From Spartinivicinus ruber (GTDB lineage: Bacteria > Pseudomonadota > Gammaproteobacteria > Pseudomonadales > Zooshikellaceae): DNA of 64,000 nt. The notes under the pieces were generated by a model. It did not search any database. It was not told where the DNA came from and was given only the letters and a program-made list of their open reading frames with translations. Location of the stretch: positions 2,393,001 through 2,457,000 of the forward strand of contig NZ_CP048878.1 in the NCBI RefSeq assembly GCF_011009015.1, given 5' to 3'. The translations under genes were made by a program, and so were the position numbers. Positions 20,677 through 47,849 of this stretch are shown here, piece after piece. The first letter of the stretch is position 1. Each line of letters begins with the position of its first letter.

Positions 20677-20731
20677 CATTAGCTGCTGTATATTTGAACA
20701 GCATGGAAACTTAATTGAGAAGGTATAAATA

Positions 20732-21692: not shown

Positions 21693-21735
21693 TATATTCA
21701 GAGAAACATCTTACTTTGATGTCGGTAGTTCAGAA

Positions 21736-23208: not shown

Positions 23209-23277
23209 CTGTATTCTCCTTAATTTATTCAACAACAGATTTATATAGTTAAAGTGAATAGTTTTTATACCCTAAAG

Positions 23278-23379: not shown

Positions 23380-23390
23380 CCAAGTCACTT

Positions 23391-23930
23391 TTAAGCTTTA
23401 CTTAAATCTTGTTTGGATGGCAGGTTGCGAATCATTTCTTTAGCTGGGTGGTTTTTTCCCTTTTGTTTGAGTGCTTTCAGGGTTTTCAGAATACTCCAGG
23501 GCGTAGGGATGCTTGGAATATGTGCTAGCTCCCAGCGAATACCAGTAGGATCAGTAAAAAAGACGGCATAATAGCCTGGTGCATAGATTGGGTATTCAGC
23601 AGGAGTATCGGTGACAGTAACGCCTTCTTTTAATAGGAATTCGTCATAAAATTGATTGATTTCTTTTTTGCCTTTTCCCCATAAGGCAATATGGTGAATC
23701 CCGGTAGCGTGTTCATTAGGTGTTAATTTTGCACCTGCTTCTGCCGGTTGGATACCTATATAACTATGAGGGAATGGGTACCGAGCCACATAATAGGTAG
23801 AGCAATAACCCAAATTCATTGTCCAAAAACTGTTATACCCTAGCCAGCCAAACATTCGATCATAAAACTTTATTGATTCTTCATAATTAAGTACCGAAAA
23901 CTCTACATGACTAATGCCTTTGAATCTCAT
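23391..23930 (-). CDS. VOC-superfamily (glyoxalase/bleomycin-resistance-like) protein
   Basis: The 179-residue product has two beta-alpha-beta-beta-beta modules typical of the vicinal-oxygen-chelate fold. The start ISHVEFSVLNYEESIKFYDRMFGWLGY has the usual first metal-ligand His, GIHHIALW supplies another, and FFTDPTGIRWELAHIP is the closing strand with a Glu ligand. It lies 60 bases after pigE on the same strand, so it is probably the last gene of the pigB-E transcript. No VOC protein belongs to the classical Serratia pathway. A role in tailoring, aldehyde detoxification or pigment binding is possible but not shown. Confidence 0.75.
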   Translation of the reverse strand: MRFKGISHVEFSVLNYEESIKFYDRMFGWLGYNSFWTMNLGYCSTYYVARYPFPHSYIGIQPAEAGAKLTPNEHATGIHHIALWGKGKKEINQFYDEFLLKEGVTVTDTPAEYPIYAPGYYAVFFTDPTGIRWELAHIPSIPTPWSILKTLKALKQKGKNHPAKEMIRNLPSKQDLSKA

Positions 23931-26537: not shown

Positions 26538-26550
26538 CGTAGAACTACCT

Positions 26551-29266: not shown

Positions 29267-31969
29267 TCAGGGGGTGTTTTGATTTTTTTCTTCAATTCGA
29301 ATAATTCCAGTATCCCCATCTAAATAAAGTAAATCACCTGTCTTTATTTGTTGCGTCGCAATCATGGTATTAACAACAGCAGGTATACCAAATTCTCTGG
29401 ATACAATAGAGCTATGGGATAACATTGAGCCAATATCAGATATCACACCAGCTGCTAGAGCGAATAAAGGAGTCCAGGAAGCATCAGTAAACTTTGCCAC
29501 CAGAATTTCACCTTGTTGAAAGGTTTCTGCTTGTTGATTTAAGTCTGTAATTACTCGTGCTCGCGCTAAAACTGTACCAGGACTTGCTCCAAATCCTTGA
29601 ATACTACTATCATCTACTATGACAGACTGATTTGCTCTTTTGGGAGTGTAAGCACCAATTAAAGCCATTGGTGGTTCTTGGACACGTTGGTTTGCTAAAT
29701 GGTCATGCCTATTTTGGTTAATCTTTTCTCTTGGAAAAGCGTCATCTGCTGATTTTCTACCAGCAATATAGTCACGTAAATCGTTAAAGTCGATGTAAGG
29801 TATATCATCTGACTTTAAAGTACCTTGTTTTTCTAAACGACTTGCTACTTCATAGATGATTTTACGATAGAACCAGGTTTCAGCAATATAAGTGGGACGA
29901 GTGGCTTCTCTTCGTTCAGCCATTTTGCCATAGGCTGCAATGACCAATTTTAGTTTTAACCTGGCTGTCCACGGGAGTTTTGATAAGAGTTGTCGAGTAT
30001 CTGCTGCTCGTAGTTGGTTAACATGATCAAGCCGTGAATCAAGCTCTATCTCATTACTAAGATACATCCTAATTACCTGAAGAAGATAATTAGGGTCATC
30101 ATTCCAGCGAGGAATGGTTAATTCGAATTCTTGATGACCTCTCGAACCAAAGTCCATTAAGAAGTTTGCAAATGTCTCATACCAAAATTTTCGACCTTTA
30201 TTATCCTGCTTTAGCACCTCGGGTAAGTCAACAACGGGTGTATTAAGAAATAACTTGGTTAAATGAGGCGACTGTTTGACTTCGTTGGCTAAGTTTGCAA
30301 TGCTTTTCGTCACTTCAATCGTTCTAAGACCATTCATTGAGGCCTTAATACGGTTCTGCAAACCATTAGCGGTGTCACCTAGCCACTTTTCACATGATTC
30401 CTTAAGTAAATCATATAAGGCAAATGATTGTAGAAAGAAAGGCATATAGGCTGCACAAGCCTCTAAAAAATACTTATCAATACGTTGCAATTCTTGATTT
30501 AAATCGGCTAGGTTCATTGAGCTTAAATCAAGTTTGTGAAAGCGTTGGGTTTCTTGTTTTCTTAATTCCACCATTTTTTTCACAATAGCACCTGCAGATG
30601 CCATATTTCTAATTTGACAGCCAAACCAGTAAAGACTGCTTTTTAGGTATTTTACACCACTCACAGGACTACCATAAGGATTTACATAGTGACTGAAGTC
30701 CACCGAATCTGTTGCGTAGCGGGTTGTAAACTTCATTGGATCATGGGTGGGTGGACACTGGGTAAGCAATTGTGCTGATGCTGATATATTCAAATACACA
30801 TGACCTTGTATATAACCCATATAATGTTGTGAATGACCGATATCAAGTAACCCCATGGTTTTTACTGCAGGGCCATGAATATTATGTTGATAAAAGCGAC
30901 AGAATGATAAACCAAGAGGAGACATTAACCCGGTGACGATTTCTCCGGTATCCATTCTGGAGAACATTGTATTGTTACGAATAAAGTCACTAGTTTCTGC
31001 AGTATCGGCATAAAGCTTTTTTGTTTGTTTTGCTGTGGTTACCGGTCTTGCTTGTAAAATCCAGATGTTGTCATCTTTTATTGCCCATTCAATGTCAAGC
31101 TCTTGATTATAATGTTGGCGTATTGCAAGAGCTTGTTTTGCTAGTCTTTGTACTTGTTCATCAGTAAGGGTTGGTTTTTCTATATTATTTTCAGGAACGT
31201 CGAGTAACTCTATTGCTCCTTGCTTAGAGTAACCCGACCTTACCAGTTTTTGACGAATAACACGGTGCGCTATTTTAAAGTTATCTTTAGTGACGACAAA
31301 AGTATCTGTTGTGACCTGACCAGAGACAACGCCTTCACCTAACCCCCAACACGCTTCAATGACAATACAACTGGTATCATCGTTAATGGGGTCAGTAGTA
31401 AACAGGACACCTGCAATATCTGCATCAACCATCTCCTGAATAACAACAGCAATCCCCCGATTTTTTAAGTCTTTCAGTGAAAAGTCCTGGGTATTAGTGA
31501 CCTGGTAAGTGTGGGCTCTGTCAGTCCAAATTGATCCCCAGCAGCGTTTTACACAATCGGTAACGGATTGGTCACCTTCAATATGTAAATAGGTGTCGTA
31601 TTGGCCTGCATAGGAGTTGGCGATACCATCTTCATTAGTTGCGGAGGATCGTATCGCAACCCGTTGACTACCAATTTTTTTATAAGCATCAATAATCTTG
31701 GTATGTAAAGATACAGGTAATGTTGTTTGTTGGATTTTATTACGAATTTCTGCACATGTATCAGCATCAATGGTATCTTGATTGCTAATCCAAGTATCAA
31801 GTCCTGATTCAGATAAAAAAGAGTGGTAAGCTGACACAGTGACACAATAGGCGGCTGGTACGGGAAAGCCGGCATTTATTAATTTACTTAATGAGCTTGC
31901 TTTACCACCTAATTGTTTACTGTTTTCACTATTACCTACAACTTCTATAAATTGAGGTTGGCTGTTCAT
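29267..31969 (-). CDS. pigC: PigC: prodigiosin-condensing enzyme (MAP + MBC ligase)
   Basis: PigC joins MAP and MBC in an ATP-dependent condensation that yields prodigiosin. The protein has the PEP-synthase/PPDK layout. The N-terminal ATP-grasp domain carries LGGKASSLSKLINAGFPVP and VAIRSSATNEDG, a long central region follows, and the C-terminal swivelling phosphohistidine domain has FGASPGTVLARARVI and the catalytic-His segment LSHSSIVSREFGIPAV. It is about 900 residues, as in Serratia PigC. The start may be the ATG at 31969 or a TTG at 31984; AAAGG precedes the former closely. It follows pigB by about 35 bases. Confidence 0.92.
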   Translation of the reverse strand: MNSQPQFIEVVGNSENSKQLGGKASSLSKLINAGFPVPAAYCVTVSAYHSFLSESGLDTWISNQDTIDADTCAEIRNKIQQTTLPVSLHTKIIDAYKKIGSQRVAIRSSATNEDGIANSYAGQYDTYLHIEGDQSVTDCVKRCWGSIWTDRAHTYQVTNTQDFSLKDLKNRGIAVVIQEMVDADIAGVLFTTDPINDDTSCIVIEACWGLGEGVVSGQVTTDTFVVTKDNFKIAHRVIRQKLVRSGYSKQGAIELLDVPENNIEKPTLTDEQVQRLAKQALAIRQHYNQELDIEWAIKDDNIWILQARPVTTAKQTKKLYADTAETSDFIRNNTMFSRMDTGEIVTGLMSPLGLSFCRFYQHNIHGPAVKTMGLLDIGHSQHYMGYIQGHVYLNISASAQLLTQCPPTHDPMKFTTRYATDSVDFSHYVNPYGSPVSGVKYLKSSLYWFGCQIRNMASAGAIVKKMVELRKQETQRFHKLDLSSMNLADLNQELQRIDKYFLEACAAYMPFFLQSFALYDLLKESCEKWLGDTANGLQNRIKASMNGLRTIEVTKSIANLANEVKQSPHLTKLFLNTPVVDLPEVLKQDNKGRKFWYETFANFLMDFGSRGHQEFELTIPRWNDDPNYLLQVIRMYLSNEIELDSRLDHVNQLRAADTRQLLSKLPWTARLKLKLVIAAYGKMAERREATRPTYIAETWFYRKIIYEVASRLEKQGTLKSDDIPYIDFNDLRDYIAGRKSADDAFPREKINQNRHDHLANQRVQEPPMALIGAYTPKRANQSVIVDDSSIQGFGASPGTVLARARVITDLNQQAETFQQGEILVAKFTDASWTPLFALAAGVISDIGSMLSHSSIVSREFGIPAVVNTMIATQQIKTGDLLYLDGDTGIIRIEEKNQNTP

Positions 31970-32005
31970 TACCTTTATATCCAAATATATCAGTGAAAAA
32001 ATACA

Positions 32006-33709
32006 TCAAATAGCTTGTTTATTACTTAGAGATGAAGCTGAATACCATTGATCTAAATAGGCCTTGGTATCATTTGCAGTGTGTTGGCCGGAAAATACGG
32101 CTGATTCGAGATTGCCTATTCCAACACTATCCTGATTAGCAAAAAAAATCCCACCATAGGGTCGTGATGCCTGGTTAAATACTTCACTCTTAAGTTGCCC
32201 AATTTCAGCAGCTACTAACCCTTTATTCCAACGCCAAAGCTTAATATCGGTAATTAAATTTGCTGATACACCAGCTGCAGCTATAATATCACTTGCTTCT
32301 TGGTACGCTGATTTTTGTAGTTCAGTGAAACTTACCTTTTGTAGTTTTCCTTGATCATCAGGAAGAGCAACTGGCTTTAAAAGTGTGAATATGCCTGTTT
32401 GGCTTGAACAGCCGGGATCTTGCCAGTTTGCCACTATGCAAGCACCTGTGCGGCACCAACTATTTTGATAAAGCTGTTGTATAGAATCCTCTATTAAATA
32501 ACCCCCAAAGTTTTCTGGCCAGACAGGTTGTTTAAGAAATACAGCTGCAACACAATAATCGTGATGTTTTATTTTTTTTATTGCTGTTTTTTGTTTCTCA
32601 GGTAAGTTGTTTACTGCACTGAGGGCGCTAAATTTAGGAGCAGCCCAAATCACTGCTTTTGTATGTACTTCATATAGTCGATTTTCTTGTTCATAGCGTA
32701 CCAGATAACCTTTATTATCAGAAGTTATAGAAAGCACACTTGACTGACAGTGCTGCTGGTAGTTAGCTAATTTATTTAAGCGATTACCTAACCGTTGAGA
32801 GATAAAACCATTCCCACCAGGAAAAGCAACTAAGGTACCATAAAGGTAACCAACTAAGAAATAAAGTCCGACATAAGCTGAAACAGTTTTGCTAGATAAA
32901 CATTCTACTCGAAGGGTCGTATCGATAGCATTAAGTACTAATGAGCTCAGTTTAATTTTTGGCAAAAGGGTTTTGGGAAGTTTAGCTTGAACTTGAGGGT
33001 TACAGAATAAATCATACAAAGAAATAGAGTCAAACAGTTCCATCTCAGCTCTTGTCCATTTACATCGCTCATGCCAAGGGACTTCAGGGTACTTTTCAGT
33101 CACTGTAAATTGTTTTAGATAGGAGAATAAAGGAGAAAATACTGGGTTACCTAAATGCTTGGAAGCAGCAATATAACGTTGTTGTTTAAATGTACCTGAG
33201 ATTAGATTGCTTGTTAGTTTTAAAAGTGCTGGGTTTAATAAAGCTACTGGTTGTTTTAAAAATGATAGGGATATTTCCCCCAAACTATTGATTAACCGCT
33301 TTCTATCAAATAGTACGAGTGTATCTTGCTCTGTTTCCTGCCACTGGTTCCACAGTTCTAAATCAGTTAATAATTGACCTACATGGCTATCTAAAGAAGG
33401 CTTTTGAAAGCAAGTACCAGCAGTAGAGTAGCGCAAGCCATGGTAGTTATTTGAACAGGCATTTCCTCCTAATTGATCTGCTTTTTCTAGTAGTAGAATA
33501 GAACCAGTAATGTGCTTTTTTAGCTGCCATGCTGCAGTTAGTCCAGACAAACCTCCACCTACAATAACGACTTCATACGTTTTGGTATTTATTATTGGCT
33601 TATGATTAAGTTTTGGTAATGAGGTTGCCATAGACTCATATTGGCTGCTAGGAAATGTTGGAAAAACAACACTATTTCTATGGGAAGATATTCTGATTTT
33701 ATTTGTCAT
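32006..33709 (-). CDS. pigB: PigB: FAD-dependent H2MAP oxidase
   Basis: PigB oxidises H2MAP to the pyrrole MAP (2-methyl-3-n-amylpyrrole). An N-terminal Rossmann FAD motif (VVIVGGGLSGLTAAWQLKK, about residues 47-65, with LLLEKADQLGGNA) and a C-terminal flavin segment (GGIFFANQDSVGIGNLESAV) mark an amine-oxidase-type flavoprotein. The first 45 residues are an unstructured extension, so translation might start at the Met near residue 27. It lies immediately before pigC. Identity is by architecture and cluster order. Confidence 0.87.
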   Translation of the reverse strand: MTNKIRISSHRNSVVFPTFPSSQYESMATSLPKLNHKPIINTKTYEVVIVGGGLSGLTAAWQLKKHITGSILLLEKADQLGGNACSNNYHGLRYSTAGTCFQKPSLDSHVGQLLTDLELWNQWQETEQDTLVLFDRKRLINSLGEISLSFLKQPVALLNPALLKLTSNLISGTFKQQRYIAASKHLGNPVFSPLFSYLKQFTVTEKYPEVPWHERCKWTRAEMELFDSISLYDLFCNPQVQAKLPKTLLPKIKLSSLVLNAIDTTLRVECLSSKTVSAYVGLYFLVGYLYGTLVAFPGGNGFISQRLGNRLNKLANYQQHCQSSVLSITSDNKGYLVRYEQENRLYEVHTKAVIWAAPKFSALSAVNNLPEKQKTAIKKIKHHDYCVAAVFLKQPVWPENFGGYLIEDSIQQLYQNSWCRTGACIVANWQDPGCSSQTGIFTLLKPVALPDDQGKLQKVSFTELQKSAYQEASDIIAAAGVSANLITDIKLWRWNKGLVAAEIGQLKSEVFNQASRPYGGIFFANQDSVGIGNLESAVFSGQHTANDTKAYLDQWYSASSLSNKQAI

Positions 33710-33877
33710 TTGACGCTGCTTTGGATTAAATTTTATATTGGTTTTATCTGTTTTTAATGCTTCACTTGATCAGAGATGGTTTCACATAATCCAGTGAGGT
33801 TTGTTTATTTCGCTTATCGTTACATATCTAAGTTTATTTAGTCATCGTTTTTATAATTAGCTAATAATATATTTAGA

Positions 33878-34318
33878 CTAAAGAGTTTGTAAATTTCTTT
33901 GTTTTTTATCTTTGAATGATGGTGTTAGCTGATTTAGTAATAAAATGAGAGCAATGAAAAATAAAACTCCATCTATTATAAATATTTGCCAATAGGCTTT
34001 ATGTAAAATAGTTATGAAACAGATTAGCATTAGTATTTGTCCAATAATGGCTGCTTTTACCAGTGACTTGTTTATTAGTAATACTAGCCCTGAAGAAAAT
34101 AATGCTATCCCAACAAAAATGTTGATAAATGCTGAGTTTAAATATAACCATTCACTGACCCCCTCAAGAATGGTATTTTGATTAGCTAGTAAGGCATTAT
34201 GCAATACTTCACTCACATTCTCCAATTGGGGAAATGCTTTACCCAAGCCTGCTAATACATAGATAATTCCTACTATTTTCTGTAAAATCTTCATTTTTTC
34301 ACGCTTTATAAATTTCAT
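33878..34318 (-). CDS. DoxX-like small integral membrane protein
   Basis: The 146-residue product is a four-helix membrane protein (MKILQKIVGIIYVLAGLGKAF; FINIFVGIALFSSGLVLLI; AAIIGQILMLICFITIL; IFIIDGVLFFIALILLL) resembling the DoxX/DoxD group. It lies between pigA and pigB on the same strand, 90 bases after pigA. I know no counterpart in the Serratia pathway. Given hydrophobic intermediates and a membrane-associated assembly line, a supporting role at the membrane or in redox is possible. Start either at 34318 or at the Met nine codons in. Confidence 0.65.
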   Translation of the reverse strand: MKFIKREKMKILQKIVGIIYVLAGLGKAFPQLENVSEVLHNALLANQNTILEGVSEWLYLNSAFINIFVGIALFSSGLVLLINKSLVKAAIIGQILMLICFITILHKAYWQIFIIDGVLFFIALILLLNQLTPSFKDKKQRNLQTL

Positions 34319-34408: not shown

Positions 34409-35563
34409 TTACCGAAGTCCTATATGTCTGGCAATTAATTCTCTTTGTATGTCTGATGTACCAGAAAAAATACGAGCAGGTAAGGCATCAAGTAATAATT
34501 TATCGATCCCAACTTCTTTAGACACTCCCATCCCACCAAAAATTTGAATAGCATCCAAGCCTGTTTGTACTGCATTTTCTGATATCCATAATTTACTGAG
34601 AGCAACATCTAACTCATTAGGTTTTCCTTGATCTGCTTGCCAGCCTACTTTATAGAGTAATAAACGGGATGTTTCTAAACGAACTTTAATATCAACAATA
34701 CGGTTAGATATCGCTTGATTATGGCCAATAGGTTTACCAAACTGTTTTCGCTCTTTGGAAAAAACGATACATTGGTTAAGTACTCGTTCCATTGCACCCA
34801 CATAAGCAGCGAATAAGCAACTGCGCTCCCATATCATTGACTCGTGGAATATTGCTGCTCCTGTTCCTATAGAGCCTAGTAGCTGGTTTGATGGGACCTT
34901 ACAGTCGTTTAGATAAATATCAGCCCAAGGAGTTGTAGCGAGCCCTGTTTTTTGCCTGTTAGAACTAACCTGTAAACCAGGAGTATTGCGGTCAATGATA
35001 AAACAGCTAACGCCTAAGAATGAATGAGAAGTATCTGTTTTGGCATATACTAGAAATAAGTCTGCAACAGGAGCATTAGTGATAAAACATTTTTCACCGT
35101 TTAAATAAAAGTAATCACCTTTAGCTGAAGGTATTGCTGTAGTATTCATACTATAAACATCTGATCCAGAGCCAGGCTCTGTAATTGCATTTGCTGCAAT
35201 TAATTTTCCTTGAGCTAAATCAGTAAGATACTTTTCCTTCAGATACTCTGAGCCATGTTTCCAAAGAGGCACTGTAGAGGCGAACATATGTGCACATAAT
35301 GAGAATATGAGTCCCATATCTATACAGGTTTTACCAAATGTTTCTACCATGAGCATGGTATCTAAGACATTTAAGCCGGAGCCACCCCATTGCTCAGGAA
35401 TAGGCAATCCTGTAAAACCAAACTCTGCAGCTTGTTTCCAATTTTTTTCATTAAAATCAGAGCTACTAATAGATTGTACGTTTATTGATCCAAACGTTTT
35501 TTCTGAAAACTTAACAACACTCTCTATGTAAGCTTGTTGTTCACTGGTTAACCCTAAATCCAT
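34409..35563 (-). CDS. pigA: PigA: L-prolyl-S-PCP dehydrogenase
   Basis: PigA is an acyl-CoA-dehydrogenase-fold flavoenzyme that oxidises prolyl-S-PigG to pyrrolyl-2-carboxyl-S-PigG. The sequence shows the family hallmarks: NAITEPGSGSD, the FLNGEKCFITNAPVADLFLVYAKT region, the catalytic-base region and the C-terminal IFGGMGVSKEVGIDKLLLDA...IFSGTSDIQRELIARHIG. The length of 384 is normal. AAGGTG sits 6 bases before the ATG. It is divergent to pigG, its carrier-protein substrate, across a 250-base regulatory gap. Confidence 0.92.
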   Translation of the reverse strand: MDLGLTSEQQAYIESVVKFSEKTFGSINVQSISSSDFNEKNWKQAAEFGFTGLPIPEQWGGSGLNVLDTMLMVETFGKTCIDMGLIFSLCAHMFASTVPLWKHGSEYLKEKYLTDLAQGKLIAANAITEPGSGSDVYSMNTTAIPSAKGDYFYLNGEKCFITNAPVADLFLVYAKTDTSHSFLGVSCFIIDRNTPGLQVSSNRQKTGLATTPWADIYLNDCKVPSNQLLGSIGTGAAIFHESMIWERSCLFAAYVGAMERVLNQCIVFSKERKQFGKPIGHNQAISNRIVDIKVRLETSRLLLYKVGWQADQGKPNELDVALSKLWISENAVQTGLDAIQIFGGMGVSKEVGIDKLLLDALPARIFSGTSDIQRELIARHIGLR

Positions 35564-36173: not shown

Positions 36174-37982
36174 ATGGATAATTCAATTTCTGAACAATAT
36201 GTCATAAACATACTGGTAAAGCATACTGGCTATGATAAGTCCACTCTAGCTCTGGATTCAGAGTTGGAAGCTCAGTTAGGAATTGATTCGATTACTTTAC
36301 ATGGTGTGTTAACAGAAATAGATAAAACCCTTAATTCAAAGTTGATTTCAAATATCCATAATTGTGTTGTAGTAAGTGATATTATTGATGGCGTACTGCC
36401 ATTTTCAGATAAGATACCCCAATTATCAACAGTTAACAGCTCTAGAAATACCCAATCTACTGTTACAGAGAATAATGTTACAGAAAATGCTAGCCAGGAT
36501 TCCACCAATTCTTGGTACCAGAAAATTGCTCAAGCATTTGATCTTTCATTAAGTGGAGACCAATATTTAGCAAGTCGTTTAACAGCTCATGAATGTGACC
36601 AAATCAAAAGTTATGCAGTTAAACTTGCAAAAGGGAAGTCAACAATTAGTATTGATGACTGCCAGTCTCTAGATGACATTACCGCCTTTATGAAAATAGT
36701 TGTTGGTGAACCAAAGCCAATAACTGAAAATATTGAACAATTAACCATGAAGGATTTTCATGAATATCGAAGTCCTGATTTATTTGCTAAAGCACACCGA
36801 TTTAATGACTTTTATCAAGCCAAGACTACAGATGGTAGTTATTGGTATGGAATGCCAATGCTGAGTCGTAGTAATGGACGCGTTTTAATTTATGATGAAA
36901 TCAGGCAAGAGAAACGCGAATTTATTATGATGGCTTCAAATAATTATTTAGGATTAGCAAACCACCCTAAAGTACTTGAAGCAATTGAAACCACTGTTCG
37001 TAAATACGGTGCTACCCATACAGGTAGTCGTATTATTGGGGGCACAAACCATCTTCATAAAGAGTTAGAACAACGCTTAGCAGATTTTAAAGGTACTGAA
37101 GATGCTATTGTTTTTCCTTCAGGTTACTCTGCAAATGTTGGGACTATCTCTGCTTTAGTTAGAAAATACGACGCTATAATAGTTGATAAGCTTAATCACA
37201 TGTCCATTATGGATGGGGCAAAGTTATCTGGTGGAGCCGTTAAAATTTATCGTCATAATGACATGGGGCACTTAGAAACAGTATTGAGTGATCATTGTAA
37301 GGATATTGAAGGCAAACTTATTGTTATTGACGGTGTTTTCAGTATGCACGGTAATCTTTGTGATTTACCAAATATCGTACGTCTTGCCAAGCAATATAAT
37401 GCTAAAGTAATGGTAGATGATGCCCATGCAACAGGTGTGCTTGGTGAAACTGGTAGTGGCACTGCAGAACATTTTGGATTAAAAGGTCAGATTGATTTAG
37501 AGTTAGGGACATTTAGTAAAGCACTATCAGGGGTTGGTGGTTTTGTTTGTGGGTGTTCAGAAGTCATTCAGTACTTACGTTTTTTTGCTAATGCTTATGT
37601 TTTTGCTGCAACCATTCCTGCCCATGTGGCTGCTGGTTTAATTGCATCACTAGAGGTGATGCAGTCAGAACCTGAGCGGTTACAACAATTATGGAAAAAT
37701 ATTAATTATTTCAAAGCAGAGCTTAATAGACTTGGGTTTGATACAGAGCATAGTGAAAGTGCTGTTATTCCTATTGTGATTAAAGATCAAAAGCTTACCC
37801 TAGCATTTGGGAAAAAAGTGCGTGAAGCAGGTGTTTATTGCCAAACAGTTGTTTATCCAGGAGTAAGTAATGGAGATGAACGCTTAAGAATTAGTATTAG
37901 TTCTGAACATTCAGATGTTGATTTAAATCAAGCGTTAGATGTATTTGCAACAGCAGGTCGTGACCTTGGTATTATTCATTAA
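36174..37982 (+). CDS. pigH: PigH: carrier protein / KAPA-synthase-like fusion
   Basis: PigH accepts the chain extended from pyrrolyl by PigJ and condenses it with serine to give the bipyrrole HBM. The N-terminal ~80 residues are a carrier domain with Ser39 in LGIDSITLHGVL. From about residue 230 it is an alpha-oxoamine synthase with NNYLGLANHP, TGSRIIGGT, VDDAHATGVLG and the PLP Lys (about residue 449) in GTFSKALSGVGGF. Family members normally carry two carrier domains. Here the stretch at residues 110-175 occupies the place of the second but shows no recognisable Ser attachment motif. A good GGAG site precedes the ATG. Confidence 0.9.
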   Translation: MDNSISEQYVINILVKHTGYDKSTLALDSELEAQLGIDSITLHGVLTEIDKTLNSKLISNIHNCVVVSDIIDGVLPFSDKIPQLSTVNSSRNTQSTVTENNVTENASQDSTNSWYQKIAQAFDLSLSGDQYLASRLTAHECDQIKSYAVKLAKGKSTISIDDCQSLDDITAFMKIVVGEPKPITENIEQLTMKDFHEYRSPDLFAKAHRFNDFYQAKTTDGSYWYGMPMLSRSNGRVLIYDEIRQEKREFIMMASNNYLGLANHPKVLEAIETTVRKYGATHTGSRIIGGTNHLHKELEQRLADFKGTEDAIVFPSGYSANVGTISALVRKYDAIIVDKLNHMSIMDGAKLSGGAVKIYRHNDMGHLETVLSDHCKDIEGKLIVIDGVFSMHGNLCDLPNIVRLAKQYNAKVMVDDAHATGVLGETGSGTAEHFGLKGQIDLELGTFSKALSGVGGFVCGCSEVIQYLRFFANAYVFAATIPAHVAAGLIASLEVMQSEPERLQQLWKNINYFKAELNRLGFDTEHSESAVIPIVIKDQKLTLAFGKKVREAGVYCQTVVYPGVSNGDERLRISISSEHSDVDLNQALDVFATAGRDLGIIH

Positions 37983-38420: not shown

Positions 38421-39590
38421 ATGAAGAAAGGAATAAAAGAAACTTTCCATAATCATTTGATGGACTGTGTCGATATTGCTAAGTGGTCTCCTTCATCGCA
38501 TAATAGTCAGCCTTGGTTCTGTCTATTAGTAGAAGGTGATGCTCATAAAAAACAGCTGTTTAAGTTAGAGGTAAGTAATTCATTTCTGGAAGAGCCTGGC
38601 TATCATGTGATTTTATTAGGAGTAGATCGCAAACGCTGTTTGAAAAGTCTGATGGCGCACCAGCATGAAATGTATTTATCATTAGGCGCTTTCTGTCAAG
38701 TTTTACTGCGTTTATTACATCTGACTGGTTGTTTAATTGTAGAAAAACAATATTATGAAAAAACACCATTGCTGACTTGGGTTGATGATACTAAAGAACC
38801 CAGGTTAGCAGTGATTGTTAAGTTCAATCCTGACATATCAAAAAAATCAGAGCAATTTACTTTACAGTCATTGTATACTCGTTTCGTTGATTTAGTAAGG
38901 GCTCGAAAAACTAATCGGGGGCATTATTTACCACTGTCTTTTCAAGATTTGAATATTAATAATGAAAATGTCTTACAATATGCCAAGCTATATGATCAAC
39001 AAAATAATCAGATAATTAATTTTAATCAATCCTGGCAGATTCGAACAATTACTGATTTAGTGGAGCAATATGCAGGGTTAGATTTTAAACACAACCAAGC
39101 CTGGTCAGAAACTTATCGGTATATCCATTTTTTATCTACTAACAAGCCTGTTGGGTTTTCTATTGAAAGTTTATTTGGGCCTTGTAGTTTCATTCGACGA
39201 TTAGGGTTGGCTATTTTATTTAACCCAGTTGTCATTTTTATTCTGAATTATTTTAGTTTTCATCAACACATTGCTAATCAAATGGCGGCACTGGTAAAAA
39301 ATGGTAACTTGTGTGTTGGTATTGTTATTGATGATAATCCCTCCGTCAAACAAACAATTATAGCTGGTGCTAGTGTGGTTGATAGTTGGTTAGCTGCAAC
39401 AGCAAATGGCTTATCATATCACCCATTAAGTATTTTACTGCAACATGATCATGTACGTAAGCAGATGGAAAAGCGTTTGGGGATTAAAGGGCAACTTGTT
39501 TTTATTGCTCGAGTAGGCCTGGCAACATCATCCTTTCAAAATACGTCGCGAGTTGCAAAAAATCAGTTGCTTATCAAAGATACTATTTAG
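38421..39590 (+). CDS. pigM: PigM: HBM oxidase, nitroreductase-like
   Basis: PigM oxidises the alcohol HBM to the aldehyde HBC in the bipyrrole branch. The 389-residue protein shows the nitroreductase-like FMN-binding start (AKWSPSSHNSQPWFCLL, residues about 20-36), a second RARKTNRGHY segment and a C-terminal half predicted to hold a membrane-associated hydrophobic stretch (LAILFNPVVIFILNYF). No strong ribosome binding site is visible. Assignment follows from the SxxNSQPW motif and its place between pigK and pigI. Confidence 0.82.
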   Translation: MKKGIKETFHNHLMDCVDIAKWSPSSHNSQPWFCLLVEGDAHKKQLFKLEVSNSFLEEPGYHVILLGVDRKRCLKSLMAHQHEMYLSLGAFCQVLLRLLHLTGCLIVEKQYYEKTPLLTWVDDTKEPRLAVIVKFNPDISKKSEQFTLQSLYTRFVDLVRARKTNRGHYLPLSFQDLNINNENVLQYAKLYDQQNNQIINFNQSWQIRTITDLVEQYAGLDFKHNQAWSETYRYIHFLSTNKPVGFSIESLFGPCSFIRRLGLAILFNPVVIFILNYFSFHQHIANQMAALVKNGNLCVGIVIDDNPSVKQTIIAGASVVDSWLAATANGLSYHPLSILLQHDHVRKQMEKRLGIKGQLVFIARVGLATSSFQNTSRVAKNQLLIKDTI

Positions 39591-39606: not shown

Positions 39607-41181
39607 ATGGTCAATACTGTTATGCAAAATTTTACCTCTCTTCGTGATTTAGTTTCGATAGGGATTAACCATAATCAACAGCGGCCTGCATTAATTAGTA
39701 ATGGTACCAAATTAAACTATCAGGAGTATGGTCAGGCGATCAATCAAATGATAGTAGAATTACAAAAAAATGGATTGCGAAAAGGGGATAGAGTTGCTAT
39801 TGCTTTACCTAAATCAGTAGAGTCATTGATTGCTGTAATGGCTGCTATTCAATTGGGTGCTGTTTATGTTCCTATTGATATTTCACAACCTGGATCTAGA
39901 GCTATTTATATAATTGATAATTGTCAGTGCAAGCTGGTGGTAACATCCTCGGAGTGGTTAAAAAAAGTTAATAAGGAAAGTAAATTAGATAACAGCTTAA
40001 AGTGGTTAGAAGTTTGTTACGAAAAATTATCAGTAAATCAACGAGAAAATTTTATAGTAAGTTGTAATGTAAATATTGTACCTGATGATTTGTTGTGTAT
40101 TTTATATACATCAGGATCAACAGGAAATCCAAAAGGTGTTAAGATTACCCATCGCAACTTACTCAATTTCATTAACTGGGCACTTACTACCTTTAAGGTA
40201 AATGAACAAGATGTGTTTGCCTGGCATGCAAAACTTAATTTTGATATTTCAACATTTGATATTTTTGTATCGTTGGCCGTAGGGGCAAGTCTCGTTGTAT
40301 TCGATGAGTTGGCGATGACTAATCCTTATGATTTAGCGGAAAAAATTAGTCAGCATAAGATAACAGTTTGGTATTCAGTACCCTCAATTTTACAATTAAT
40401 GGTTAAAACAAATGTAATTCAATATTTTGACTGTCATTCATTAAGGTGGATATTATTTGCTGGGGAAGTTTTCCCTCCTAAGTCATTAAGACAGCTTACT
40501 ATAGCGTTGCCACAAGCAAGTTTCTTTAATTTATATGGTCCTACTGAAACTAATGTTTGTACTTGTTTTTCTGTCAATGTAGAAGAGTTAGATGAAACAA
40601 AACCATTACCGATAGGTTTTTGTTTACCAAATGTTGTTGCAGAAGTCTATGATGAATGGGGAAATCGAATGGAAGAGGGAGAAAAAGGCGAGTTAGTGAT
40701 TAGTGGCCCTTGTGTGACACCAGGATATTGGCAAATTAATGACCTTATTCATACCCGACGACATGCTAATAATTGTCACTATACAGGTGATTTGGTACAT
40801 CAAATAGGTGGTTGTTTTTATTATCATGGTCGTCTGGATAATATGATAAAAATTAATGGTCATCGTGTTGAGTTAGAAGAAATTGAGCATGTGGTCAGTC
40901 AATTTGATGAAATAATCGAAGTAGCTGTTGTGGCACTTAATAAAGAAGAAACACTACAGTTAATTATTTGTTATAAGTCAGAATCTGACCCTATTGACTT
41001 AATTGTCTTAAAACAACACTGTGCTCAATATTTACCTAAATATATGATTCCCCATAAAGCAGTAAAAGTGAATCAAATACCTTTGAACCATAATGGAAAA
41101 ATAGATAGACGTTGCCTGGTTACACTATTATCTCAGCCAGAACAAAGATCAGCAGCTACAACTATTGCTTTGGAGGTGTAA
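39607..41181 (+). CDS. pigI: PigI: L-prolyl-AMP ligase (adenylation enzyme)
   Basis: PigI activates L-proline and loads it onto PigG. The 524-residue protein has the standard adenylation motifs: LYTSGSTGNPKGVK, NLYGPTETNVC, HYTGDLV, GRLDNMIKINGHRVELEEIE and PLNHNGKIDRR with the catalytic Lys. The stop overlaps the start of pigJ by one base (TAATG), indicating translational coupling. Confidence 0.92.
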   Translation: MVNTVMQNFTSLRDLVSIGINHNQQRPALISNGTKLNYQEYGQAINQMIVELQKNGLRKGDRVAIALPKSVESLIAVMAAIQLGAVYVPIDISQPGSRAIYIIDNCQCKLVVTSSEWLKKVNKESKLDNSLKWLEVCYEKLSVNQRENFIVSCNVNIVPDDLLCILYTSGSTGNPKGVKITHRNLLNFINWALTTFKVNEQDVFAWHAKLNFDISTFDIFVSLAVGASLVVFDELAMTNPYDLAEKISQHKITVWYSVPSILQLMVKTNVIQYFDCHSLRWILFAGEVFPPKSLRQLTIALPQASFFNLYGPTETNVCTCFSVNVEELDETKPLPIGFCLPNVVAEVYDEWGNRMEEGEKGELVISGPCVTPGYWQINDLIHTRRHANNCHYTGDLVHQIGGCFYYHGRLDNMIKINGHRVELEEIEHVVSQFDEIIEVAVVALNKEETLQLIICYKSESDPIDLIVLKQHCAQYLPKYMIPHKAVKVNQIPLNHNGKIDRRCLVTLLSQPEQRSAATTIALEV

Positions 41182-43781
41182 TGGCTACTGAGCCTATTGC
41201 TATTGTTGGTATTGCTGGTTGCTACGCTGGTTACAGGAGCCTTCCTGAGTGGTGGCAGGCAATAGGAGTGACTACAAAACCAGATTCCTCACAATCTATT
41301 TTTAAATTATCGCCAGTTGATTTACCTGGGCTAATTAAGCAATTTCGAATTCCCCCTATCTATCTTAATACTTTACCTGATGTTTTATTGCGTGTATTAG
41401 CTGTAGTTGAGGATGCTATTTTGCATGCTGAAAAAGGAGGACCAATTGATACTCACTATAGTGATGTTTACTTTGCTGGGGGACAGCCATTTGCCAATGT
41501 ATGTTTGAATGCCTTACGAATAAATGCAGTAGAATTTGCCGCAACATTACCGCCTGCAGAGCGTCATTTGTTTATGGAGGCAGTTGCAAGTTTGCCGACA
41601 AATTTTAACGATAAGTTGTACGAGTTGTCAGCATCTATTGCGAGTCAAATAGCAGCTCAGTTTAAGTTTCAAGGCCGGACAATTTCTTTTGATGGTAGTG
41701 ATTTATCATCAATTTGGGCATTAGAGGCGGCGATTAATAATTTACGTGCGCATCAGACCAATTTAGCTTTAGTATGTGCAGGCCAACTATATGACTCACC
41801 TTTAATACCCAGTTTGTTGGCGCAGGCAAGATTAACTGATGATAACCAATTGAAATTAGGGGAGGGGATTGGGGCATTGGTGTTAATGCGTCAAAGTGAT
41901 GCAATTAAACAACAGCGACCTATTTTAGCAGCATTAACAGGTATGAGTGTTTGGCAACAACCAGGGAAAGGTGTATTTCGATATAATGTACAACAGTCTC
42001 AACAAGTAAAAGTGATTAGGAGAGCTTTAGCACAAAGTGATAAGCTGTCACTAAAAGCAGTAAAGCATGTTCTGTTGAGTAGCATACCAGCTAATTGGCA
42101 AGAAGAGTCTCAGGTATTATCTACGATTTACCAACAATCCTTACAACCAGTTAGTTATGCATCAACTGTTGCATCAATTGGTCATACTTTTGCCTGTGCT
42201 CCCATAGCGGCAATCAGCTATGCTGTACAGGCAATGCAACATGAGCAATGGCCTGCCATCAATCCTTTGAAGAAAGATGCAGCAATGCAGTGGCAGAATG
42301 AGCCTGTTATGGCTGTGGGAATAAATACGATAGGTATTGGTGGTGCCTGCGCCCATTTACTATTGGAAGCCCATAAATCTGTTCAGTCAGTCTCTGTAGC
42401 AACCCCCAGCTTTTCTCCAATCGCTGTTGTGGGAGTAGGAGTTAATTTTGCCTTAGGTAACTCCATTGATCAATTTTGGCATAATAACTTGCAAGGTAAA
42501 AATACTTTGCAACCAGTAACGGAAGATACTTTAGATGGTAGTTTGTTAACTAAAGATGGACATTATGATGTTAATCGAAGTTATACGGCACTAGCTTCTC
42601 AAATTAAGCTACCCAATATGACGTGTCCTGTTGGTGTGTTACCCCATCGTTGGTTGGCACTGGACCCTGCCCAAAAGTTGGCAATTTGGTTGACTCAGCA
42701 AGCTGTTCAGGATTGGCAATCTAATCAAGCAGCTTTGAGTAAGAAAAAGCCTCATATGGGTGTTTATTGGGGCACTAACCAGATTAATCAAACAGCGCGG
42801 GAGCATGGTGCAAGTTGTTATAATCAATGGCAATTTTCAAAATTATTGGATCAACTAAAGGTTCCTAAGGCATTACAACAACAATGGCAACGTTGGCTTG
42901 TAAAACAATTAGGGGAATCAAACCAGTTTACTTTTGATAGCACTTTAGCTACCGGGATTGCATTAGCTACATTGCAGCTTTTTGATTTTGCAGGAAAGGC
43001 AACAGCTGTTCAAGCTGCTTGTGCATCCTCCTTAGCAGCACTTGAACTCGCTTGTCGAGCGTTACAGCAGGGAGAGATTGATGTGGCATTGGCTGGTGGG
43101 ATAGAGTTAGGAGTAAATCGTTATGAGCTTGTTTTGTGTTCGAGAATGCAACTACTGTCTCCTAGTATCATTACTCCATTTGATGTTCAAGCCGATGGAT
43201 TTTCAGTTGGTGAAGGTGGAGCATTATTTGTTTTAAAACGACTTGATGACAGTATTCGGGATGGTGATCGAATTTATGGCGTGATTCGGGGTATTGGTGC
43301 TTCTAATGATGCTGTTTCTATGATGGCTCCATCGGATCAAGGGCAGGCGCTAGCAATAGAAAGAGCATTTCGTCAGGTAGACTTTTTACCAAGTGAAGTT
43401 GAGTATATTGAAATGCATGGTACTGGAACGACTAAAGGCGACGTCATTGAAACCAGAGCATTGTCTAATAGTTATGGTGTTTATAAACGCCAAAGCCCAC
43501 TTTATTTAGCTTCAGTAAAATCCATGATTGGTCATACCATGGCAGCAGCTGGTGCAGCAGGCTTTTTGCGAGCTTTATTGGCGGTTTATCATGGCACAAT
43601 TCCTTTTACGATTAATATTTCTCAGCAGAACCCAGCCTTGGTATTAGCAGAAAATCTACAAGCTGTTATACCCACTCAGCCACGCCCTTGGCATAACTTG
43701 CAACTACCAAGAAGAGCCGGGGTAAATGCTTTTGGTACGGGAGGGATTAACTATCACTTGTTGGTTGAACAGTACCTATAA
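41181..43781 (+). CDS. pigJ: PigJ: double ketosynthase, first domain without active-site Cys
   Basis: PigJ condenses pyrrolyl with malonyl on PigH to extend the bipyrrole. Two ketosynthase domains are present. The second (from about residue 415) has the full catalytic set: Cys614 in QAACASSLAALE, His in EMHGTGTTKGD and His in MIGHTMAAAGAAG. The first has DGSD (residues 171-174) where the Cys motif should be and so resembles a chain-length-factor partner, as known for this family. The ATG at 41181 has GGAGG 4 bases before it and overlaps the pigI stop; a Met 23 codons upstream lies inside pigI and is rejected. 866 residues. Confidence 0.92.
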   Translation: MATEPIAIVGIAGCYAGYRSLPEWWQAIGVTTKPDSSQSIFKLSPVDLPGLIKQFRIPPIYLNTLPDVLLRVLAVVEDAILHAEKGGPIDTHYSDVYFAGGQPFANVCLNALRINAVEFAATLPPAERHLFMEAVASLPTNFNDKLYELSASIASQIAAQFKFQGRTISFDGSDLSSIWALEAAINNLRAHQTNLALVCAGQLYDSPLIPSLLAQARLTDDNQLKLGEGIGALVLMRQSDAIKQQRPILAALTGMSVWQQPGKGVFRYNVQQSQQVKVIRRALAQSDKLSLKAVKHVLLSSIPANWQEESQVLSTIYQQSLQPVSYASTVASIGHTFACAPIAAISYAVQAMQHEQWPAINPLKKDAAMQWQNEPVMAVGINTIGIGGACAHLLLEAHKSVQSVSVATPSFSPIAVVGVGVNFALGNSIDQFWHNNLQGKNTLQPVTEDTLDGSLLTKDGHYDVNRSYTALASQIKLPNMTCPVGVLPHRWLALDPAQKLAIWLTQQAVQDWQSNQAALSKKKPHMGVYWGTNQINQTAREHGASCYNQWQFSKLLDQLKVPKALQQQWQRWLVKQLGESNQFTFDSTLATGIALATLQLFDFAGKATAVQAACASSLAALELACRALQQGEIDVALAGGIELGVNRYELVLCSRMQLLSPSIITPFDVQADGFSVGEGGALFVLKRLDDSIRDGDRIYGVIRGIGASNDAVSMMAPSDQGQALAIERAFRQVDFLPSEVEYIEMHGTGTTKGDVIETRALSNSYGVYKRQSPLYLASVKSMIGHTMAAAGAAGFLRALLAVYHGTIPFTINISQQNPALVLAENLQAVIPTQPRPWHNLQLPRRAGVNAFGTGGINYHLLVEQYL

Positions 43782-43791: not shown

Positions 43792-44466
43792 ATGTTCATA
43801 GGGAATAGTATTGATATGATTTCACAAGAACAAATAGAAACAGGCCAGGAAGTCTACTCTCCCAATATACTGAAAATATATGATATTTTAGTATTGAGTC
43901 TGTCAAATCGGTTTATCTGGAAAAGCAAGAAAAAACTAACTCAGGATTTTTTTAATGAGTCTGTAAGTGCTAATCATTTGGATGTTGGTGTTGGTACAGG
44001 TTATTTTTTAGATAATTGTCAATGGCAGCAAAAGCCTCGTATCGGGTTAATGGATTTAAATGAAAACTGTCTTCAAGAAGCCAAAAAACGACTAATACGC
44101 TATAATCCTGAGCTTTATTGTTGGGACGTGTTTCAGCCGATTGAATTAGAAAACAAGTTTGATAGTTGTAGTATGAACTTTCTCCTGCATTGTTTACCAG
44201 GCACTATGGAAGAAAAGCTAGCAATTATTGATAACTTGAAAGGTGCATTAAACCCTGGAAGCAGTATTTTTGGTACAACAGTGCTTTATGAGGGAGGGGA
44301 TAAGTCTGCATTTGCTGAAAAATTATTGAGCTTTTATAACAAAAAAGGCATTTTTTCAAACTACGGTGACTCCTGGTCTGCAATGCAACGTTGTTTGCCA
44401 AAATTAGGTAAGGTGGAGCAGCTTAAAGTTAATGGTTGTGTCTGCTTTTTTAAACTGAGAGTTTAG
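43792..44466 (+). CDS. Class I SAM methyltransferase at the PigF position
   Basis: The 224-residue protein has the SAM-binding glycine motif HLDVGVGTGYFLDNC (about residues 63-77), an acidic post-I segment (GLMDLNENCLQEA) and the motif-IV region FDSCSMNFLLHCLPG. In the pathway HBC must be O-methylated to MBC, and no other methyltransferase is present in the cluster, so this is the likely enzyme. To my knowledge Serratia PigF is longer (about 340 residues) with an N-terminal dimerisation domain, which is absent here. I therefore leave the symbol blank. It begins 10 bases after pigJ. Confidence 0.75.
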   Translation: MFIGNSIDMISQEQIETGQEVYSPNILKIYDILVLSLSNRFIWKSKKKLTQDFFNESVSANHLDVGVGTGYFLDNCQWQQKPRIGLMDLNENCLQEAKKRLIRYNPELYCWDVFQPIELENKFDSCSMNFLLHCLPGTMEEKLAIIDNLKGALNPGSSIFGTTVLYEGGDKSAFAEKLLSFYNKKGIFSNYGDSWSAMQRCLPKLGKVEQLKVNGCVCFFKLRV

Positions 44467-44498: not shown

Positions 44499-45227
44499 AT
44501 GGAACTATGGATTACCCTTGTTATTGTTATCGGTATTTTGTCAGTTTGTATAGTGGTAAGTGCTAAAAAATCTGCTGATATGCGTATGCCTTTTATTTGG
44601 GGGTTCAATACCTTGTTGCCTGTTGCACTGGTTTATTGTTATTTTGGTGAGGGTGACTGGCCTCATAAAGCATTAATCATCAGCTTTGTGGTGATTTACT
44701 TATTGAGGATGAACGTTGTACTCACTGCTTGGTATGAAAATACGGCTGCAGCAAAATTGAATGAAATAATTAATCCCGCAAAGTTTGCTGGGTTGTCAAT
44801 ATTACTGGTTAATATATTTGGTTGGATTTATTGTTTGCCTTTTTACTGGGCTGCAGATTTAGCTGGTCCTTTTTCTTATTTAGAATATTCAGCTGTAGCC
44901 GTTTATATTGTAGGAACGATTTGGCACTTTGGTAGTGATTATCAAAAGCGTAAATTTAAACAAGATCCAACTAATAAAGGAAAAATCATAAGTACTGGTT
45001 TTTGGAGATATTCGCGTCATCCTAATTATTTTGGTGATTTTTTGATATTTGTCAGTTTTGGTTTATTAGCTGGCAACTGGTGGGGAATAGTAGCACCATT
45101 AGCAAACTTGATGCAGTACCTCAGTGATGCCATCCCAAAAAGTGAAGCAATGGCTAAGAAACGCTATGGTAATGCCTGGCTAGAGTATCAGAGGAATGTT
45201 AAATGTTTTATTCCAGGAGTGTACTAG
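44499..45227 (+). CDS. pigN: PigN-like integral membrane protein (DUF1295/ICMT-like)
   Basis: The 242-residue membrane protein has about six hydrophobic segments and the DUF1295/steroid-5-alpha-reductase-like C-terminal signature GFWRYSRHPNYFGDFLIFVSFG followed by KRYGNAWLEYQRNVKCFIPG. In Serratia, PigN is required with PigF for the HBC-to-MBC methylation step. Its position directly after the methyltransferase gene fits that pairing. A strong AAGGAGG site lies 5 bases before the ATG. The family identity is clear; the PigN equivalence rests on context and memory of that protein. Confidence 0.72.
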   Translation: MELWITLVIVIGILSVCIVVSAKKSADMRMPFIWGFNTLLPVALVYCYFGEGDWPHKALIISFVVIYLLRMNVVLTAWYENTAAAKLNEIINPAKFAGLSILLVNIFGWIYCLPFYWAADLAGPFSYLEYSAVAVYIVGTIWHFGSDYQKRKFKQDPTNKGKIISTGFWRYSRHPNYFGDFLIFVSFGLLAGNWWGIVAPLANLMQYLSDAIPKSEAMAKKRYGNAWLEYQRNVKCFIPGVY

Positions 45228-45538: not shown

Positions 45539-46816
45539 ATGGATATAGAGTTTCATGAAATTATTCTCTATACACTGCCATCATTATTTCTTCCTCTTTT
45601 CTTTGACGCAGGCATTGACTATATAAAGAAGACACATAGATATCGGTTGAATGATACAATAACCAATTTATCTATCAGTTTAGCAAATTTAGGTGCTTCA
45701 TTTATTATCCTTACTGCTGTACTTGCTGTGTATAGCTATACCTACAGTAATTTTTCCCAGTTTCAACTGAATCAAACAGAGTTATCAACCTGGTTATTAG
45801 CTTTTATACTTTATGATTTTTGTTATTACTGGAATCACAGATTACACCATAAAATAGGAATACTATGGGCAGATCACATAGTTCATCATTCTGGCGAGGA
45901 AATGAATTTTGGTGTATCTATTCGCCAGAGTTTTCTTACTGAGTTAACTATGTGGCCTTTGTTCTTATTAATGGCGCTTGTTGGTATTTCAATAGAAGTA
46001 TTTTTGATTACCAGCTATATTCAGGCAACATGGGCATTTCTGATTCACACCAAATGTTTGAAAAATACTAGATGGCTAGACAATATCTTGAATACTCCTT
46101 CTTTACATCGAGTCCATCATGCGACTAACCAAATGTATATTGATAAAAACTTTGGTGGTATCCTAGTTGTCTGGGATCAAATTTTTGGAACATACCAGAA
46201 TGAGCTGGCTGATAGCCCAGTTAAATACGGTATTATGGAGTCTTTTGCCAGTTTTAGTCCTGTCAGTATTAATCTTCAATATTATAAAGTTATATTGAAG
46301 AAAATAGCTTATAGCCATTCTATTAGTGAAATGCTTAAGTCTATATTTGCATCTCCAGGCTGGGTTCCCAAGGCAATTTCTGCCAAGAAATTTTATGCTG
46401 AGATTTCCAATTTATCAGCAAGGCAGCATGTATCCTCTCGTGGAGAGATTAGTGTAAATGCAAGAAAATCTTGTATTATACGGTTTATTTTAACATTAAG
46501 TGTATTTATATTGTTAATGTGGAACTTTGCATTACTGGGTTGGTGGCAGATAGCAAATCTAGCAGTGTTATTTTTCTGGTTATGTCATTATAATGGCCTT
46601 GCTTTTGACGGTGTTAAACTGACTTGGAAAATAGAGGCTATCAGTCAGTTTTTAATTATTCTTGTAGGGGGAGTCGTTGTTTATAATAACCAACCAGGAC
46701 ATTTATTAATATTGGTGTTAATAGCTTCCATTACTTCTTTAAGTTGCTATATTGTCTACCAGAATCCTCCCATTAAACCAGAAACGGATGCTTTAACAAA
46801 AGCGTTAGTTGAATAG
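45539..46816 (+). CDS. Alkylglycerol-monooxygenase-like membrane di-iron oxygenase
   Basis: This 425-residue protein belongs to the fatty-acid-hydroxylase/sterol-desaturase superfamily. The di-iron His boxes are clear: HRLHH, HIVHH and LHRVHHATN. Flanking transmembrane helices lie at both ends, with a C-terminal multi-helix extension. This layout is like alkylglycerol monooxygenase. A protein of that type (PRUB680 of Pseudoalteromonas rubra) cyclises prodigiosin to cycloprodigiosin, so the position next to a pig cluster suggests the same role. That role is inference; lipid hydroxylation is the alternative. GTAAGGA precedes the ATG. Confidence 0.82.
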   Translation: MDIEFHEIILYTLPSLFLPLFFDAGIDYIKKTHRYRLNDTITNLSISLANLGASFIILTAVLAVYSYTYSNFSQFQLNQTELSTWLLAFILYDFCYYWNHRLHHKIGILWADHIVHHSGEEMNFGVSIRQSFLTELTMWPLFLLMALVGISIEVFLITSYIQATWAFLIHTKCLKNTRWLDNILNTPSLHRVHHATNQMYIDKNFGGILVVWDQIFGTYQNELADSPVKYGIMESFASFSPVSINLQYYKVILKKIAYSHSISEMLKSIFASPGWVPKAISAKKFYAEISNLSARQHVSSRGEISVNARKSCIIRFILTLSVFILLMWNFALLGWWQIANLAVLFFWLCHYNGLAFDGVKLTWKIEAISQFLIILVGGVVVYNNQPGHLLILVLIASITSLSCYIVYQNPPIKPETDALTKALVE

Positions 46817-47105: not shown

Positions 47106-47849
47106 TTAGTAATAGTTGTGAAGTTGAATAAGGTTTAAATTTAATGCTTTACTAATGGCTTGCACTCGATTAACAACATCCAGTTTTTTGAAAATATTTG
47201 AAATATGGAACTTAACAGTTCTTTCAGATATAGCTAAAATTTTACTAATATCCCAAGTGGACTTGCCTTGGATAATCCAAAAAAGAATCTCCTGTTCTCT
47301 TTTGGTTAAACTAGGTGCATTATCTTGTTTTAAACATTGATCTCGTAAGTGAAAGAACAAATTGTTTAAGTGGGGCAAGGTATAATAAAGAATTCGTTCA
47401 ACAGAATTATACTCTATGTTGTCCTGACAGCCTACAATGATCACGACTATTGAGTCATCCAGTTTATTAGAAGACTCTATAAAGTGTGCTCCTAATAAAC
47501 CAAACTCTTTCATCAGTTCATTGGTTTTCAACGTACGGCAGCAGTCAGGTTTTGCTAATGTATTTTTTATAATTTTATGCTGGTTACTATTAATAATGGT
47601 TTTTTGTGGTACGATGGTGTTATTGTTGTGGTTGTAAATAAACCAAAATGGTGAACTTTTACCAATATGTTTGGTGTTTCTATCTGAATAGACAATAAAT
47701 TCATCACACCGTGTAAGGGAAAGAAAATGACGGGTAATTTCTGAAAGATTATCAGAACCATTAATATTACGAATACAACTATTAATTAATTCAATGATTT
47801 CTATCAGGCTACTTTTTCGTAGGCGCTCACTCTTTCGGCTGGTACCCAT
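47106..47849 (-). CDS. LuxR-type transcriptional regulator
   Basis: The last ~65 residues form a LuxR/GerE helix-turn-helix (LTKREQEILFWIIQGKSTWDISKILAISERTVKFHISNIFKKL, about residues 178-220). The N-terminal 170 residues look like a small sensor domain but do not show the conserved Trp/Tyr/Asp set of acyl-homoserine-lactone binders that I would expect, so quorum-sensing is uncertain. It lies at the right edge of the pigment region, convergent with the di-iron enzyme gene, which makes it the best local candidate for pathway control. AAGGATG precedes the ATG. Confidence 0.8.
   Translation of the reverse strand: MGTSRKSERLRKSSLIEIIELINSCIRNINGSDNLSEITRHFLSLTRCDEFIVYSDRNTKHIGKSSPFWFIYNHNNNTIVPQKTIINSNQHKIIKNTLAKPDCCRTLKTNELMKEFGLLGAHFIESSNKLDDSIVVIIVGCQDNIEYNSVERILYYTLPHLNNLFFHLRDQCLKQDNAPSLTKREQEILFWIIQGKSTWDISKILAISERTVKFHISNIFKKLDVVNRVQAISKALNLNLIQLHNYY

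Follow-up and report, generated by a model that had tools for sequence, protein, structure and literature searches.

PRUB680 of Pseudoalteromonas rubra, described by de Rond in 2017, reportedly acts at C4′ of the pentyl chain of its substrate and closes a six-membered ring. It belongs to a family of membrane oxygenases resembling alkylglycerol monooxygenase (AGMO, EC 1.14.16.5), and, to our knowledge, the electron supplier of the bacterial AGMO-like enzymes is unsettled. AGMO itself catalyzes the tetrahydrobiopterin-dependent cleavage of ether lipids and has eight essential histidines and a ninth (PMC7911779), while PRUB680 has been found to cyclise prodigiosin (PMC6667630, PMC7484904). In Streptomyces, the oxidative cyclisation of prodiginine side chains is instead carried out by RedG, McpG, and MarG, Rieske oxygenases from another protein family. 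Spartinivicinus ruber S2-4-1H, a strain described in 2020 (PMC7484904, Huang 2020), is reported to produce heptylprodigiosin ([M+H]+ 352.23) and cycloheptylprodigiosin (350.22) with the former about 1.5 times as abundant as the latter, whose seven-membered ring carries an ethyl group (PMC7484904). The same authors found 48.1% similarity between gene2310 and PRUB680, presumed that gene2310 cyclises the pigment, and gave the LuxR gene gene2311 as its neighbour (PMC7484904). The presumed cyclase role of gene2310 and the cyclic product of the strain have thus been in print since 2020, and the main idea of an earlier note on this locus, which proposed a prodiginine cyclase from the DNA letters, is not new, given that PMC7484904 contains the gene, its similarity to PRUB680, and its presumed role. 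The products named in that note, cycloprodigiosin (m/z 322) and prodigiosin, have to be replaced, since the published major pigments are found at m/z 352.2 and 350.2 instead (PMC7484904).

The DNA analysed here, which we call the window, is a stretch of 64 kb (64,000 nucleotides) of the S. ruber genome, and the open reading frame at 45539..46816 (+) encodes a predicted prodiginine cyclase of 425 amino acids. We equate it with gene2310 because the published order of gene2310 and gene2311 matches the window, in which the cyclase is followed by a convergent LuxR-type regulator gene at 47106..47849 (−), recognised by its reading frame, its domain, and the legend of Fig. 5 in PMC7484904. The frame is complete, with an ATG start and AAGGA 7 nt 5′ of it. 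A scan for promoters and terminators around the gene gave the same counts as shuffled sequences, and scans of the window for Rfam families (gathering cut-offs) and tRNAs came back empty. In agreement with the AGMO-like di-iron family proposed in the earlier note, PF04116 (FA_hydroxylase) was found at residues 85-218 with an E of 9.6e-27, together with nine histidines of the AGMO type, and hydropathy indicates several membrane segments, as the note had also read from the sequence. PF04116 was the sole Pfam family at E ≤ 0.001, with no Rieske [2Fe-2S] domain at that threshold. The enzyme would share with RedG, McpG, and MarG the reaction, in which a prodiginine side chain is cyclised oxidatively, but not the protein family.

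The three histidine boxes were located exactly as the earlier note had spelled them, with HRLHH at residues 100-104 (45836..45850, +), HIVHH at residues 113-117 (45875..45889, +), and HRVHH at residues 190-194 (46106..46120, +). H100, H104, H113, H116, H117, H170, H190, H193, and H194 are invariant in all six members of the clade described below, three of which are 94-99% identical to each other, and in 80 of 80 other homologues (the best 80 of 162 relatives), and this invariance far exceeds chance. H170 (46046..46048, +) is probably the ninth conserved histidine, as nine are essential in AGMO (PMC7911779). The likeness to AGMO in family, in the nine histidines, and in being a membrane protein comes from an alignment with bacterial homologues rather than with animal AGMO. 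What the cyclase clade has in addition is H103, which is found in 6/6 members and is replaced by glycine in all of the 80 other homologues (again the best 80 of 162 relatives). It adjoins H104 and, like D112, is one of 52 clade-distinguishing positions, defined as those that are invariant in the six members and whose residue is shared by no more than 5% of the 80 other homologues, with another residue there in at least 60%. Searches of the PDB by sequence for cyclase relatives gave none at E ≤ 1 and none at E ≤ 0.1. An AlphaFold2 model built from 31 sequences had a pLDDT of 75, falling below 50 at residues 185-206, the third histidine region; with this low-confidence model, Foldseek gave no match at E ≤ 0.001, and the top rows of VIA-align were helical bundles matching the C-terminal part.

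Close relatives of the cyclase are rare. Of the 390 genomes searched in the order, three gave matches at E ≤ 1e-70 (S. ruber itself, G003 from its own family, and G017), as did three of 395 from the Paraglaciecola arctica family (G329, G366, and G385; Alteromonadaceae), with identities to the S. ruber protein of 52% for G003, 53% for G017, and 47-48% for the three Alteromonadaceae. In the 28 near genomes, the next relatives beyond these reach an E of 1.7e-60 and 33% identity. A scan of genome contigs for further clade members found none among the best 80 of 162 relatives (31-39% identity), and a plasmid collection yielded 198 records with generic relatives only, none covering 80% of the cyclase. 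We built one tree from 40 rows hand-picked from 107 proteins and another from 33 rows, from which seven were omitted for being long or distant (L001, L004, L091, L093-L096); both represent the three near-identical Alteromonadaceae copies by two rows and cover relatives other than animal AGMO and the sterol or fatty-acid hydroxylases of known function. In both, the six cyclases (five rows) form a clade with 100/100 support, whose long stem measures 2.9-3.4 changes per column across the two trees, and the S. ruber protein is the earliest branch within it. A grouping of S. ruber with G003 was rejected with a p of 0.017 for a pair chosen after the tree was seen. The gene tree thus departs from the species tree, which makes equal function of the members less direct. 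The lower pairwise identities of the S. ruber copy might point to accelerated evolution, but we rejected this idea, as the copy is the earliest branch of the clade and not its longest path in both trees.

Two of the three Alteromonadaceae proteins have 48.07% identity to the S. ruber cyclase, against the published 48.1% for PRUB680. Because the 47-48% of all three equals the published value, G329, G366, and G385 probably represent P. rubra or a near relative, and this match suggests that their proteins are probably PRUB680 or close kin. The assignment to the PRUB680 type made in the earlier note is supported by a fully supported clade with like proteins from pig-bearing genomes, in which PRUB680 itself would fall by the agreement between these two identity values. 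The S. ruber enzyme resembles PRUB680 in its family, in coming from a prodiginine producer, and in the closure of a side-chain ring, which is presumed for S. ruber, and, if these genomes are indeed P. rubra or its kin, also in length, in the nine histidines, and in belonging to the same clade. They differ in that they are only 48% identical, in that the S. ruber gene adjoins the pig cluster whereas PRUB680 lies away from it, and in that PRUB680 closes a six-membered ring on a pentyl substrate, while a heptyl substrate and a seven-membered ring are reported for S. ruber.

The pig cluster next to the cyclase was confirmed by its best-defined members, as PigE (23991..26561, −; 1423.6 bits, cut-off 850), PigD (26551..29004, −; 1407.3 bits, cut-off 950), the prodigiosin ligase PigC (29267..31984, −; 1542.8 bits, cut-off 1300), and PigA (34409..35563, −; 675.6 bits, cut-off 500) all exceed their NCBIfam equivalog cut-offs. 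PigB is split in two genes (window 32006-34318), one for its N-terminal part (DUF6041; 33878..34318, −; positions 2-123 of the 659-position model) and one for the rest (32006..33709, −; model positions 122-657, 580.6 bits), and two pieces are likewise found in G001, G003, and G004. On the opposite strand, the gene at 36174..37982 (+) is presumably pigH, a name that we give by position, and the nitroreductase-fold protein at 38421..39590 (+), detected in domain and NCBIfam searches, is one that we take to be PigM-like. The presumed PigH is a PLP-dependent acyltransferase/aminotransferase (8-amino-7-oxononanoate synthase-like), and such a gene is listed in PMC7484904, which also names PigI, the L-prolyl-AMP ligase, here an AMP-binding protein at 39607..41181 (+). 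A PigJ-like ketosynthase (41112..43781, +) of uncertain start overlaps pigI and reaches 264 bits with the PigJ model, below its cut-off of 900. It is followed by a SAM methyltransferase recognised by its Methyltransf_12 domain (43792..44466, +), which is also found in G001 (83%). The pig clusters of G003 and G004 each include a PigF-like O-methyltransferase (56-57%), and a G017 query of this type gave no matches in the S. ruber genome at E ≤ 0.001; because the pigment has a methoxy group, the Methyltransf_12 protein may replace this enzyme. By pigE, at 18525-23930, there are genes for an RPE65/carotenoid-oxygenase-like protein, a cytokinin-dehydrogenase-like flavoprotein, and a glyoxalase-like protein. 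Their G001 counterparts have 72-93% identity and an unchanged order, and the three could possibly be pathway members, for instance for the enal precursor. An IS1595-family transposase gene (20732-21667) lies between the RPE65-like and cytokinin-dehydrogenase-like genes, and a multihaem cytochrome c gene with a weak MtrC/MtrF-like match (15086-16819) is found just upstream of the pig region.

We used PigD as a marker for the pathway. In the order, eight of the 390 genomes matched it at E ≤ 1e-70, five of them with a close copy (at least 53% identity); in the Paraglaciecola family, six of 395 matched it at E ≤ 1e-100, three of them with a close copy by the same measure. All six genomes of the cyclase clade fall within the eight with a close PigD (Fisher p 9e-14, which becomes 1e-9 when the near-identical trio is taken as a single genome; both values are uncorrected for kinship). 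The genomes with a close PigD and no cyclase are G001, from the same genus, and G004, from the same family. More distant PigD-like proteins (36-41% identity) occur in G092, G155, G126, G544, G541, and G754 (L116, L117, L118, L126, L127, and L128), which have no clade cyclase at E ≤ 1e-70. In G001, a sister Spartinivicinus, we compared 18 window genes that run from the RPE65-like gene through flhA, leaving aside small reading frames (pigG and the RedY gene among them). Seventeen of the 18 lie in the same order on one contig and only the cyclase is missing, with an unrelated spacer of 188 bases at its position between the DUF1295 and LuxR genes. In G004, the sequence common with G003 stops 23 bases past the DUF1295 stop codon, the contig end resembles by eye a transposase fragment, and no cyclase match was found in the search of the 28 near genomes; loss of the gene is likely there, with an assembly gap as the alternative.

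The position of the cyclase relative to the pig genes is less constant than its presence. In G017, it is surrounded by pig genes, with the end of a PigM-like gene 25 bases ahead of it and an NAD(P)-binding gene immediately following it. In G003 and the three Alteromonadaceae, the cyclase and PigD are on separate contigs of draft assemblies, so that the distances between them are not given by the assembly, and only DUF1295 of the 18 window genes is found near the cyclase (8-11 kb on each side). Linkage to the pathway, from which the earlier note had derived its prediction, is thus a weak predictor on its own, as these four genomes bear pig genes though the cyclase is not near them.

The DUF1295 gene of S. 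ruber (44499..45227, +; PF06966) encodes a membrane protein whose C-terminus resembles sterol reductases, with a better match to Δ(14)-sterol reductase (4quv, E 6.6e-7) than to isoprenylcysteine methyltransferase (4a2n, E 0.0016). It adjoins the cyclase in 5/6 clade genomes (of which the three near-identical ones represent one arrangement), even without nearby pig genes. It lies 311 bases 5′ of the cyclase in S. ruber and 301 bases 5′ of it in G003, whereas it lies 3′ in the three Alteromonadaceae copies, 24 to 44 bases away depending on the start chosen, where the encoded protein has 35% identity over 119 residues to that of S. ruber. G017 has no DUF1295 gene by the cyclase, and the one match in this genome is weak and lies on a different contig; the NAD(P)-binding NmrA/SDR-like gene right after its cyclase stop codon (L106:14792-15667), where other genomes have DUF1295 nearby, is a different candidate redox partner. 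In the family of S. ruber, DUF1295 is present in 4/4 PigD carriers with 77-81% identity and absent from G002, the sole PigD-free genome, and across the order 30 of 322 genomes match at E ≤ 1e-15, with 42% as the next best identity after the family. As judged from these sequences, DUF1295 is a candidate for an accessory role, either with the cyclase or in the pathway, and as such a lead only. A role purely bound to the cyclase is disfavoured because DUF1295 stays in G001 and G004, which lack it. Its identity as the missing O-methyltransferase was set aside, since G003 and G004 have both the PigF-like gene and DUF1295. The open-licence PMC literature contained no paper combining prodigiosin with DUF1295.

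Taken together, the sequence family, the clade, the histidines, the co-occurrence, the genomic context, and the published pigments make it very probable that this is the gene for the S. ruber prodiginine cyclase, a PRUB680-type oxygenase integral to the membrane, with a di-iron centre bound by histidines. In such an enzyme, O2 and two electrons would generate a high-valent di-iron oxidant, which could abstract hydrogen from heptylprodigiosin at C5′ of its heptyl chain; the resulting carbon radical would attack the adjoining free position of pyrrole ring C, and the loss of a second electron and a proton would restore aromaticity. The expected product is cycloheptylprodigiosin, with a change from 352 to 350 that corresponds to minus 2 H and no oxygen retained. 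We infer the link from gene to product, the order of these steps, and the control of ring size by the enzyme and not by chain length alone, and we are less sure of the ring size than of the cyclase role. The S. ruber copy is the deepest branch of its clade, and this may be connected with the size of the ring. A five-term search of the open-licence PMC literature on prodiginine cyclisation since 2018 returned no paper.

An enzyme of the same type could also close a six-membered ring bearing a propyl group, in which case the published seven-membered assignment would be wrong. The CH, CH2, and CH3 counts are equal for both rings, and PRUB680 is said to act at C4′. Nevertheless, we consider this variant of the cyclase explanation improbable, because two observations reported in PMC7484904 fit, in our interpretation, an ethyl group, namely an HMBC correlation that links the terminal methyl with the ring CH, and a methyl carbon at 12 ppm. 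It is less probable still that the gene encodes a general AGMO-like or lipid or sterol hydroxylase that lies by chance next to the pig cluster while something else cyclises the pigment. The only recognised domain, PF04116, does define a broad family that includes lipid hydroxylases, and the ornithine lipid hydroxylase OlsE has this domain in common with the cyclase, but the score with the OlsE model NF052566 is a weak 88.3 bits, far under the cut-off of 475. Furthermore, such a hydroxylase would hardly be expected to form a separate clade on so long a stem, with a close PigD in every one of its six genomes and with all other relatives (the best 80 of 162, plus those of the near genomes) below 40% identity in the matched part.

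The least probable explanation, to which we give very little credence, is that cycloheptylprodigiosin is formed as in Streptomyces, by a RedG-like Rieske oxygenase encoded elsewhere in the genome. The genome has seven Rieske matches, including two VanA_C-type proteins of 331 and 340 amino acids, which gives this proposal some material to work with, but none of the seven is inside the window, and two of the four longest are glycine betaine monooxygenase-like, one above and one below the family cut-off. The two VanA_C proteins, compared with NCBIfam families and not with RedG, exceed the cut-off of none, and nothing links them to the pathway. In addition, the published name (PMC7484904) describes an ortho-fused ring, like that of cycloprodigiosin, and not a meta-bridged one. 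We retain the PRUB680-type cyclase as the probable source of the cyclic pigment. An extension of this explanation, which we regard as tentative and unlikely in its full form, is that Gram-negative prodiginine cyclases are two-gene membrane modules, in which a di-iron oxygenase is accompanied by a DUF1295 protein that would provide reducing power from NADPH or a reduced cofactor, or have some other function in the pathway, with the S. ruber enzyme built for C5′ and a seven-membered ring and its sisters for C4′ and a six-membered one.

The points of interest beyond the published work are the difference in ring size between the S. ruber product and that of PRUB680, the clade-specific H103, the sister locus without a cyclase, and the association with DUF1295. 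Ring closure at unactivated C-H bonds is hard to achieve by chemistry, and two enzymes that are 48% identical and have different ring sizes, one reported and one presumed, offer a compact system for the study of regiochemistry and electron supply in AGMO-like enzymes. If the three Alteromonadaceae genomes are P. rubra or its kin, both of these enzymes adjoin a DUF1295 gene, and G001, with the cluster and no cyclase, would serve as a natural control.
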